Shown here: positions 8,434 through 11,724 of the stretch, piece by piece
How positions within the stretch are numbered: the stretch's first letter is position 1
Layout: the number at the start of each line of letters is the position of its first letter
Origin: Bacteroidota bacterium
GTDB taxonomy: Bacteria > Bacteroidota > Bacteroidia > 2-12-FULL-35-15
DNA length: 64,000 bases
Assembly: GCA_017303895.1 (NCBI GenBank)
Contig: JAFLBF010000006.1
Span: forward strand, 1 to 64,000
Reading direction: 5' to 3'
Program-made: the position numbers and the translations under genes
The notes under the pieces: model-generated
Seen by the model: only the letters and a program-made list of their open reading frames with translations
What the model was told of the DNA's origin: nothing
Databases searched by the model: none

Positions 8434-9486
8434 ATGGCTAAAAAAACGCAAAAAGGAAAACCAGCTAAAAAGGCTGCTAAACCAGTAAAAAAAGCGGTAG
8501 CTAAAAAGCCTGCAAAGAAAGCAGCTCCTAAAAAGGCAGCAAAACCTGTAAAAAAAGCAGCTCCTAAAAAAGCAGCAAAACCTGCCCGTCCGGCAGGCGG
8601 GAAAGTAGCTCCTAAAAAAGCTGCTAAACCGGTTAAAAAAGCAGTAGCTAAAAAACCTGTAAAAAAGGTTGTAAAGAAAGTTGTTGCTAAGAAAGTTGTA
8701 AAAAAAGCAGTAGCTAAAAAGCCTGTAAAAAAAGTAGTTAAAAAAGTTGTTGCTAAGAAAGTAGCAAAGAAAGCAGCAAAACCGGTAAAAAAGGTAGCTC
8801 CTAAAAAAGCAGTTGCAAAAAAGGTTGTTGCTAAAAAAGTAGCTAAGCCTGCAAAAGCAGTTAAACCTGCAAAAGTAGTGAAACCGGTTGCAAAACCAGT
8901 TCCTGCAAAACCAGTGGTAGCTGCAAAACCTGTAGTAGCAAAACCAGCTCCTGCACCGGTTGTAAAGAAAAAAGCTGAACGTTCAGTTGATTTGGACGAT
9001 GATGGAAAAAGAAGAGCTTCTTACGATGATGCTCCAATGGTAGTGGAATACAAAACTCCTTCTATCCGTAAACCATTAGGTCCAACTCCTAAGCCACATG
9101 TGAATACAGATACTCGTACACGTTATTCAGATGCTGAATTAAAAGAGTTCAAGCAATTGATCCTAAAAAAATTGGAAGATGCTCAAAAAGATTACGAATT
9201 ATTAAAGAGCACGCTTTCTCATAAAGATGACCATGGTACAGATGATACTTCTCCAACCTTCAAATTGTTGGAAGATGGATCTGATGTATTATCAAAAGAG
9301 GAAACTGCACATTTAGCAGCCCGTCAGGAGAAATTCATCCAAAACTTGCAAAATGCTTTGATCCGTATCGAGAACAAAACATACGGTATTTGCCGTGCAA
9401 CTGGAAAATTGATCTCTAAAGAGCGTTTGCGTTCTGTTCCTCATGCTACTTTAGCTATTGAAGCGAAATTAGAGCAAAGCAATTAA
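8434..9486 (+). CDS. DksA/TraR-like protein with long Lys/Ala/Pro-rich (histone H1-like) N-terminal tail
   Basis: 350 residues. Residues 1 to about 185 are almost entirely Lys, Ala, Pro and Val in repeats such as KKAAKPVKK and KKVVAKK, resembling bacterial H1-like or AlgP tails, which bind DNA. Residues of about 222-350 align with the DksA/TraR family: a helical hairpin then YGICRATGKLISKERLRSVP, where canonical DksA has YGICxxCGxxIxxxRLxAxP. Three of the four zinc cysteines are absent, so the C4 zinc finger is lost. A short DksA-like protein between ileS and lspA is common in this phylum; the long tail here is unusual. A GC-rich palindrome at 8581-8601 is inserted in frame in the tail. A strong terminator follows the stop. 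Confidence 0.85.
   Translation: MAKKTQKGKPAKKAAKPVKKAVAKKPAKKAAPKKAAKPVKKAAPKKAAKPARPAGGKVAPKKAAKPVKKAVAKKPVKKVVKKVVAKKVVKKAVAKKPVKKVVKKVVAKKVAKKAAKPVKKVAPKKAVAKKVVAKKVAKPAKAVKPAKVVKPVAKPVPAKPVVAAKPVVAKPAPAPVVKKKAERSVDLDDDGKRRASYDDAPMVVEYKTPSIRKPLGPTPKPHVNTDTRTRYSDAELKEFKQLILKKLEDAQKDYELLKSTLSHKDDHGTDDTSPTFKLLEDGSDVLSKEETAHLAARQEKFIQNLQNALIRIENKTYGICRATGKLISKERLRSVPHATLAIEAKLEQSN
8581..8601. repeat. GC-rich 21-bp palindromic element inserted in frame
   Basis: CCTGCCCGTC-CGGCAGGCGGG is an imperfect palindrome (CTGCC/GGCAG core) and much GC-richer than its surroundings. It encodes PARPAGG inside a Lys-rich repeat otherwise lacking Arg and Gly. I recall similar short palindromes dispersed in Bacteroidota genomes, both intergenic and in genes; only one copy is seen here. 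Confidence 0.55.
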
Positions 9487-10557: not shown

Positions 10558-11538
10558 TTTTTTTCCTGCTAAATACTCCGCTATTTGAACCGCATTCGTT
10601 GCCGCACCTTTGCGTAAGTTATCCGCCACGATCCACATGTTCAATGTTTTTTCCTGTGTTTCATCTCTGCGCAAACGCCCTACCAATACTTCGTCCTTAT
10701 CATGCGCATCCATTGGCATCGGGTATTTTAAATTCTTCACATCATCCACTAACAATACTCCCGGTGCCGTTTGTAATAATGAGCGCACATCATTCAAGTC
10801 AAATTCCTGATCAAACTCCACATTCACACTTTCGCTGTGTCCACCCATTACCGGAATACGAACCGTTGTGGCGGTTACACGGATAGTATCATCACCCATG
10901 ATTTTCTTGGTCTCATTCACCATTTTCATTTCTTCTTTGGTGTAACCATTGTCGGTGAACACATCAATATGCGGGATCACATTCAAGTCGATCGGATAAG
11001 CATAGGCCATTTCTCCTTTTACACCTTTCCGCTCATTCATTAACTGGTCAACAGCTTTTACACCTGTTCCCGTTACTGATTGATAAGTAGAAACGATTAC
11101 ACGTTTGATCTTGTATTTTTTATGCAATGGATTTAATGCCACCACCATTTGAATAGTAGAACAGTTAGGATTTGCAATGATCTTGTCGTTTGCCGTTAAT
11201 ACATCAGCATTGATCTCCGGCACTACCAGTTTTTTTGTTGGATCCATTCTCCATGCCGAAGAATTATCAATTACAGTGATCCCTGCAGCAGCAAATTTGG
11301 GCGCCCATTCGGTAGAGGTGCTTCCACCTGCCGAGAAAATAGCCACATTGGGTTTCATATCAATAGCAGTTTGCATCCCAACTACTTTGAACTTCTTTCC
11401 CTTAAAAGTAACTTCCTTACCAACCGATCTTTCGGATGCTACCGGAATTAATTCTGTTACAGGAAAATTACGTTCCTCCAATACCTGGATCATTTTTGTA
11501 CCAACCAATCCGGTGGCACCTACTACTGCTACTTTCAT
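10549..11538 (-). CDS. asd: Aspartate-semialdehyde dehydrogenase
   Basis: 329 residues. It catalyses the NADPH-dependent conversion of aspartyl-4-phosphate to aspartate-4-semialdehyde, the branch point for lysine/diaminopimelate, threonine, methionine and isoleucine. The N-terminal Rossmann motif is GATGLVG (7-13). The catalytic Cys126 is in NPNCSTIQ, and the C-terminal region has the substrate-binding RIPVMGGHS segment. No promoter of the TAnnTTTG type is seen between the hairpin at 11568-11592 and the ATG, so expression should depend on read-through of that hairpin from the promoter at 11695-11724. Confidence 0.96.
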   Translation of the reverse strand: MKVAVVGATGLVGTKMIQVLEERNFPVTELIPVASERSVGKEVTFKGKKFKVVGMQTAIDMKPNVAIFSAGGSTSTEWAPKFAAAGITVIDNSSAWRMDPTKKLVVPEINADVLTANDKIIANPNCSTIQMVVALNPLHKKYKIKRVIVSTYQSVTGTGVKAVDQLMNERKGVKGEMAYAYPIDLNVIPHIDVFTDNGYTKEEMKMVNETKKIMGDDTIRVTATTVRIPVMGGHSESVNVEFDQEFDLNDVRSLLQTAPGVLLVDDVKNLKYPMPMDAHDKDEVLVGRLRRDETQEKTLNMWIVADNLRKGAATNAVQIAEYLAGKKLI

Positions 11539-11559: not shown

Positions 11560-11592
11560 TAAAAAAAAAGCCTTTCCATTTCGGAAAGGCTT
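11560..11592 (-). terminator. Intrinsic terminator in front of asd (candidate attenuator)
   Basis: On the minus strand AAGCCTTTCC, loop GAAAT, GGAAAGGCTT form a perfect 10-bp stem followed by a run of T (plus strand 11560-11568 is all A). It lies after the 21-codon leader ORF and 22 bp before the asd ATG. The 5' arm CCTTTCC can alternatively pair with GGGAAGG in the last codons of the leader ORF (plus-strand 11628-11634), giving mutually exclusive structures. Confidence 0.8.
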
Positions 11593-11619
11593 GTGAAATT
11601 TATATTGTATAAAAAAACA

Positions 11620-11685
11620 CTATTGACCCTTCCCTTGCTGGAAACGTTTCATGTTGTGCTTTTTATTTTTACAGATCATTTTCAT
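11620..11685 (-). CDS. Candidate asd leader peptide (21 aa)
   Basis: A 21-codon ORF between a consensus promoter and a terminator, immediately upstream of asd. The peptide begins MKMICKNKKH and ends FQQGKGQ. Six of 21 residues are Lys, three Met and one Ile, all end products of the pathway that Asd feeds. The ATG lies only 10 bp past the -7 box, so the mRNA would be nearly leaderless. Codons 17-20 (CAA GGG AAG GGT) contain the sequence able to pair with the terminator's 5' arm. This is the arrangement of a trp-type leader. Alternatives are a functional microprotein or a non-coding small RNA. The ORF is too short for coding statistics. Confidence 0.5.
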   Translation of the reverse strand: MKMICKNKKHNMKRFQQGKGQ

Positions 11686-11694
11686 ATTCGGGTA

Positions 11695-11724
11695 CAAACC
11701 TAATTGATTTTTTTTATCTGACAA
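11695..11724 (-). promoter_or_regulatory. Consensus promoter of the asd leader/asd transcript (TTG-N19-TAGGTTTG)
   Basis: On the minus strand TTG (plus 11722-11724, inside TTTTTG), 19 bp, then TAGGTTTG (plus 11695-11702). Both boxes and the spacing match the Bacteroidota consensus exactly. Confidence 0.75.

Follow-up and report, generated by a model that had tools for sequence, protein, structure and literature searches.

Ribosome-mediated attenuation is a classic mechanism type. The best-documented cases of leader-peptide attenuation come from Proteobacteria and Actinobacteria; for Bacteroidota there are mostly passing mentions. In other bacteria, lysine-pathway genes are also controlled at the RNA level by the lysine riboswitch (L-box), which binds lysine directly. 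Among forms of RNA-level regulation, PMC1262725 assigns the L-box to lysine genes and lists attenuators for histidine, threonine, and phenylalanine. In Flavobacterium psychrophilum, strong clues for leader-peptide attenuation were reported upstream of amino-acid biosynthesis operons, and the main-text passages found in that report name no lysine or asd leader (PMC9723704). Bacteroid-trp RNA (RF01692), which takes its name from trp genes, is a candidate cis-regulatory RNA of Bacteroidetes, and the asd RNA motif (RF01732) is a motif of Lactobacillales (PMC2864571). The former concerns another gene; the latter is named after asd, the putatively controlled gene here. Neither Rfam model matches the leader reported here, and no Rfam family covers it in the analyzed DNA or at six leader loci. 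No lysine or asd/dapA leader peptide was found in the open-licence literature searched.

Herein, a 64,000-nucleotide stretch of a Bacteroidota genome (the window) was analyzed, and the minus-strand region in front of asd is interpreted as a trp/his-type ribosome-mediated transcription attenuator that would control asd with lysine as the main signal. The probability of this reading is estimated at about 0.87. The leader resembles the enterobacterial trpL, hisL, and thrL leaders in its short control-codon ORF, the mutually exclusive helices 1:2, 2:3, and 3:4, the intrinsic terminator, and a stop codon placed to mask region 2. It differs from them in the control codons (Lys), the gene (asd or dapA), the phylum (Bacteroidota), and the position of the ORF, which begins about 2-5 nt past the expected transcription start and leaves no space for a Shine-Dalgarno site.

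At positions 11724-11538 of the window (minus strand), a promoter is followed by a 21-codon ORF and a terminator, after which asd begins. The promoter (11724-11695) is of the Bacteroidota sigma-A type, with TTG at 11724-11722, a spacer of 19 nt (N19), and TAGGTTTG at 11702-11695; the +1 position is expected near 11690. The leader ORF (11685-11620) encodes MKMICKNKKHNMKRFQQGKGQ, ends with a TAG stop, and contains 6 Lys, 3 Met (start counted), and 1 Ile codons. The terminator hairpin (11592-11568) reads AAGCCTTTCC-GAAAT-GGAAAGGCTT and runs into a T-run. Its 5' arm AAGCCTTTCC (region 3) lies at 11592-11583, and its 3' arm GGAAAGGCTT with the T-run (region 4) lies at 11577-11561. Region 2, GGGAAGGG (11634-11627, codons 18-20), is the 5' arm of the putative antiterminator, for which region 3 competes: GGGAAGG(G) pairs with CCTTTCC with a duplex energy of -12.8 kcal/mol. 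The gene asd (11538-10549, ATG at 11538) encodes aspartate-semialdehyde dehydrogenase of 329 aa, as identified by TIGR01296 (444 bits against a cut-off of 324), NF011456 (454 bits against 223), and Pfam PF01118/PF02774.

Within 11900-11530 of the minus strand, the named promoter box is the sole TAnnTTTG. The closest promoter look-alike, TAAATTTC at 11602, lies 5' of the hairpin, and any transcript begun there would also run into the terminator. The upstream gene (11807 onward, plus strand) is divergent from the leader and asd, and the terminator is therefore not the end of an upstream gene. The original prediction had named the consensus promoter, the 21-codon ORF with its 6 Lys, 3 Met, and 1 Ile codons, the terminator stem with its T-run, and an asd without a promoter of its own, and all of these were recovered at the positions given above. 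Its pairing of GGGAAGG with CCTTTCC was also found, at codons 18-20 and not at codons 17-20 as proposed.

The set of asd upstream regions comprised 150 loci: 70 from a search of 148 related whole genomes, plus 80 named loci. The order box, short ORF, purine arm, pyrimidine-arm terminator, and asd was recognized at about 40 of them; the carriers include Niabella, Niastella, Limnovirga, Sediminibacterium, and Flavihumibacter. No matching element was found before asd in Sphingobacteriaceae (Pedobacter, Mucilaginibacter, Sphingobacterium), Dyadobacter, Hymenobacter, and others. An independent search used a covariance model, R1, trained on 18 leaders taken only from genera other than that of the window. 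When searched against the genome of the window, R1 found the window leader as its sole match at E<=0.01 (81.2 bits, E 4.3e-12), a resemblance far beyond chance. Matches of R1 were present in 192 of 296 genomes and 68 of 94 genera of a related family (f35), in 22 of 396 genomes sampled across the class, one of them (G691) a false positive, and in 12 of the 36 genomes that represent the window's own genus, 30 of which have a detectable asd. The presence of the leader in only 12 of these 36 genomes indicates that it is dispensable. Nearly all strong matches that were opened lie directly 5' of asd, with second copies 5' of dapA, and other matches at E 1e-3 lie away from asd. Weak matches were rejected as asd leaders in two cases: the one in G691 proved to be the ordinary terminator of the gene upstream and lies before an S4/Hsp15-like gene, and the one at L165/L236 is a His leader before hisG.

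Other arrangements were also observed within the genus of the window. At L005 and other loci of this genus, no leader is present and a TAGGTTTG box lies directly before asd. Such leaderless asd loci allow attenuator loss or gain to be compared within one genus. Repeat units like CCTCACCCCGGCCCTCTCC lie between the terminator and asd at three loci (L007, L011, and L012), and at a fourth (L002) they occupy the place of the leader upstream of asd.

Comparison of the sequences indicates that the leader can form three mutually exclusive helices, each of which is kept by covariation: P0, the antiterminator (2:3), and the terminator (3:4). P0, which is missing from the account of the original prediction, pairs the mid-ORF stretch ATAAAAAGCAC (region 1; 11666-11656, codons 7-10) with GTGTTTTTTTAT (11620-11609), as supported by covariation, folding, and reading of the sequence. 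Covariation was measured in 40 leaders by comparing duplex energies within and between sequences with 1000 permutations, and the compared windows were set by alignment columns, not by complementarity. For P0 (CATACAAACG-type mid-ORF arm with CGTTTGTATG-type post-ORF arm), the energy was -9.96 kcal/mol within and -6.56 kcal/mol between sequences (z -9.2). For region 2 with the terminator 5' arm, the values were -13.8 and -11.6 kcal/mol (z -7.1), and z was -5.0 in 29 representatives. The terminator arms gave z -11.3. The observed values of all three helices were reached in 0 of 1000 permutations, the 29 representatives included. Control window pairs remained near zero (z between -1.9 and +1.4), which indicates that relatedness alone does not produce the covariation signal.

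On an alignment of 18 sequences, P0 showed 15 doubly changed cells versus 5.9 in shuffles, with a steep drop when the arms were slid. In one leader (L097), all three arms are altered together (GGGGCT / AGGCCCC / GGGGCTT). In relatives, ORF, alternative pairing, and terminator are retained jointly and show compensatory changes, contrary to the pattern named in the original prediction as refuting it, a terminator conserved without the ORF or the alternative pairing. RNAalifold returned no pairs on the 40-sequence MAFFT alignment because differences in loop length shift the arms. A 1:2 helix drawn first between region 1 and region 2 (TTTCC with GGGAA) gave a covariation z of -0.6 in the representatives and was replaced by P0. 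P0 is a 1:2-type helix that overlaps the control-codon region; it would sequester the antiterminator arm and is the counterpart of the trp 1:2 helix.

The ribosome geometry was calculated with the assumption that 9 nt are covered beyond the A-site codon. The leader stop codon sits just 5' or just 3' of region 2. With a ribosome stalled at the anchor Lys codon, at least 70% of region 2 is free in 83 of 83 leaders; with a ribosome at the stop, at least 50% of region 2 is masked in 82 of 83. When the RNA behind a stalled ribosome was folded up to region 3, the antiterminator had P >0.5 in 82 of 83 leaders, compared with 0 of 83 for a ribosome at the stop. The terminator was predicted to form in 80 of 83 leaders without ribosomes and in all 83 with a ribosome at the stop. 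In the full-length stalled RNA at equilibrium, the terminator was still favored in 69 of 83, which means that the switching must be kinetic. The E. coli trp leader likewise favored the terminator under the same equilibrium calculation (P 0.85).

A working scheme can be proposed from these elements. Transcription would begin about 5 nt 5' of the leader AUG, with a ribosome translating the short ORF behind the polymerase. When charged tRNA-Lys is plentiful, the ribosome would reach the stop and cover GGGAAGGG (region 2), the 3:4 terminator would form, and an RNA of about 130 nt would be released with asd off. When charged tRNA-Lys is short, the ribosome would stall at the Lys codon or codons 7-14 nt 5' of region 2 and mask the 5' arm of P0, region 2 would pair with the terminator 5' arm, and read-through would turn asd on. 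If no ribosome translates the ORF, P0 would form and hold region 2 away, and the terminator would again form. We infer from this layout that termination is conditional, together with the direction and size of the response, the transcription start, and the charging of lysine, not of several aspartate-family amino acids, as the cue.

The leader ORF appears to start almost without a 5' UTR. In 71 of the 75 relatives with a recognized box, this TAnnTTTG-like element lies 6-9 nt 5' of the ATG that opens the leader ORF, and PMC9723704 places the promoter box at -12 to -5. The leader 5' UTR would then be about 2-5 nt across relatives and about 5 nt in the window, and the ORF would be nearly leaderless. 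According to the same paper, only 5.5% of mRNAs in F. psychrophilum are leaderless (PMC9723704), and such an arrangement of the leader ORF is therefore unusual. This bears on the question of how ribosomes that rarely use Shine-Dalgarno sites start near-leaderless ORFs in time to steer RNA polymerase.

In many Chitinophagaceae the leader peptide has the form M..MKHTKRTKKxx, and in the window's genus it is MKMILKNKKHGKKRF-like. The anchor residue was picked as Lys, and its presence in 83 of 83 peptides is by construction; the Lys-Lys pair and the spacing are not. Of the 83 peptides, 77 have Lys-Lys at the anchor. The distance from the anchor Lys codon to the start of region 2 is 7-14 nt in 76 of 83 leaders, and an AARAAR motif is in frame with the leader ATG in 73 of 79 relatives. 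In the window, this site is ATG-AAA (11652-11647), which reads Met-Lys (Met12-Lys13) where relatives have Lys-Lys. Lys makes up 30.5% of leader residues versus 16% in shuffles, with Lys codon counts inflated by the A-rich nucleotide composition. Met, Ile, Thr, and Lys together account for 55% of leader residues; their share is 36% for shuffled sequences and 28-32% when other frames are read. A third-position excess was sought in close-pair substitutions, and no clear excess was found (364/321/137 at positions 3/2/1). This indicates that the peptide outside the Lys codons is without typical coding constraint, as expected if only the control codons and the RNA pairing matter.

Second copies of the leader were found about 30-70 nt before dapA at ten loci in five genera. 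The identity of dapA (4-hydroxy-tetrahydrodipicolinate synthase) was checked for one copy by TIGR00674. Lys-Lys is kept in all ten dapA leaders; Met and Thr are scarcer in their peptides than in those of the asd leaders from the same genomes. The gene dapA supplies only the lysine/diaminopimelate branch, which makes lysine the signal common to asd and dapA. In the genome of the window, the upstream regions of dapA and two aspartate kinases were read and no such leader was found.

A leader of the same architecture with a swapped control codon was observed before hisG. In the window's own genome, hisG (contig C12, about 140861, minus strand; L241) is preceded by MKNSTHIHHHHTYPKG*, which includes HIHHHH. 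A TATATTTG box lies 7 nt 5' of the ATG of this ORF, and both a P0-like hairpin and a terminator are present. In a relative (L236), MKQFTHIHHHHTFP* precedes hisG and further his genes. The promoter-ORF-helix-terminator layout with His codons, as read from these sequences, supports an attenuation mechanism in this phylum.

The same attenuator might instead sense several aspartate-family amino acids (Lys, Met, Thr, and Ile) at asd, a version that we consider unlikely. Met, Thr, and Ile stand around the Lys codons of asd leaders (MMTMKHTKRTKK), and internal Met amounts to 5.8% of residues versus 1.3% in shuffles. Where a genome has both leaders, the asd leader (MQKMMKHTKRTKK) is also richer in Met and Thr than the dapA leader (MQLIKKHTKQVKK, MNSIKKYSSKK). 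However, Thr and Ile show no excess over the shuffled expectation, the window leader is without Thr, and no codons other than those for Lys are shared by every leader at a fixed distance from region 2. A stall further 5' would leave the 5' arm of P0 partly uncovered. The original prediction had left Lys or Met as the stall codons. Lys is borne out by the Lys-Lys pair in 77 of 83 leaders and by the dapA copies; Met is not constant but is enriched, and it may contribute at asd. The early stall that frees the antiterminator arm and the ribosome at the stop that covers it, both also foreseen, agree with the geometry in 83 of 83 and 82 of 83 leaders. The overall attenuator reading is supported with refinements, namely P0, Lys as the constant control codon, and the near-leaderless ORF.

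Two further explanations would dispense with attenuation by a ribosome. The complete set of promoter, short ORF, and terminator within about 130 nt, and the repeats between leader and asd in some genomes (L007, L011), would suit an autonomous sRNA or small gene, terminator included, whose place before asd is accidental. Against this, no further promoter box follows the terminator in front of the window asd, linkage to asd (or to dapA for the second copies) holds across families, and conservation extends to the alternative 2:3 pairing, for which a terminator acting on its own would have no use; an independent unit is thus very improbable. A lysine-binding riboswitch that happens to contain an ORF would explain a conserved structured leader before lysine-pathway genes, and L-box riboswitches control the same genes elsewhere. 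This explanation is judged the least probable, since the lysine-riboswitch Rfam model has no match in the window (gathering cut-off) or at six leader loci (E up to 5), where Rfam as a whole gave only sub-threshold chance matches. The conservation tracks the reading frame (73 of 79), the control codons, and the stop position, the leader is mostly single-stranded or in simple helices, and the hisG leader of the same design has His codons instead.

Under the preferred reading of a lysine-responsive attenuator, the mechanism type is known and the lysine specificity is probably the new point. It is somewhat likely that this is the first described attenuator that senses lysine codons, with a regulon in Chitinophagaceae and neighbors that covers asd broadly and dapA in five or more genera, a near-leaderless ORF, and a stall-based equivalent of the lysine riboswitch. 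The asd leader represents a well-supported and broadly conserved example of an attenuator in Bacteroidota. Lysine probably joins the amino acids that are read by leader-peptide attenuation, and the leader suggests a stand-in for the lysine riboswitch in this group. The same element was apparently re-used before a second gene, dapA.

Elsewhere in the window, a protein of 350 aa is encoded at 8434-9486 (plus strand). A weak DksA/TraR zinc-finger match, just below the Pfam cut-off, follows a long N-terminal stretch that is rich in Lys, Ala, and Pro, of the AKPVKKA type, and histone-H1-like.
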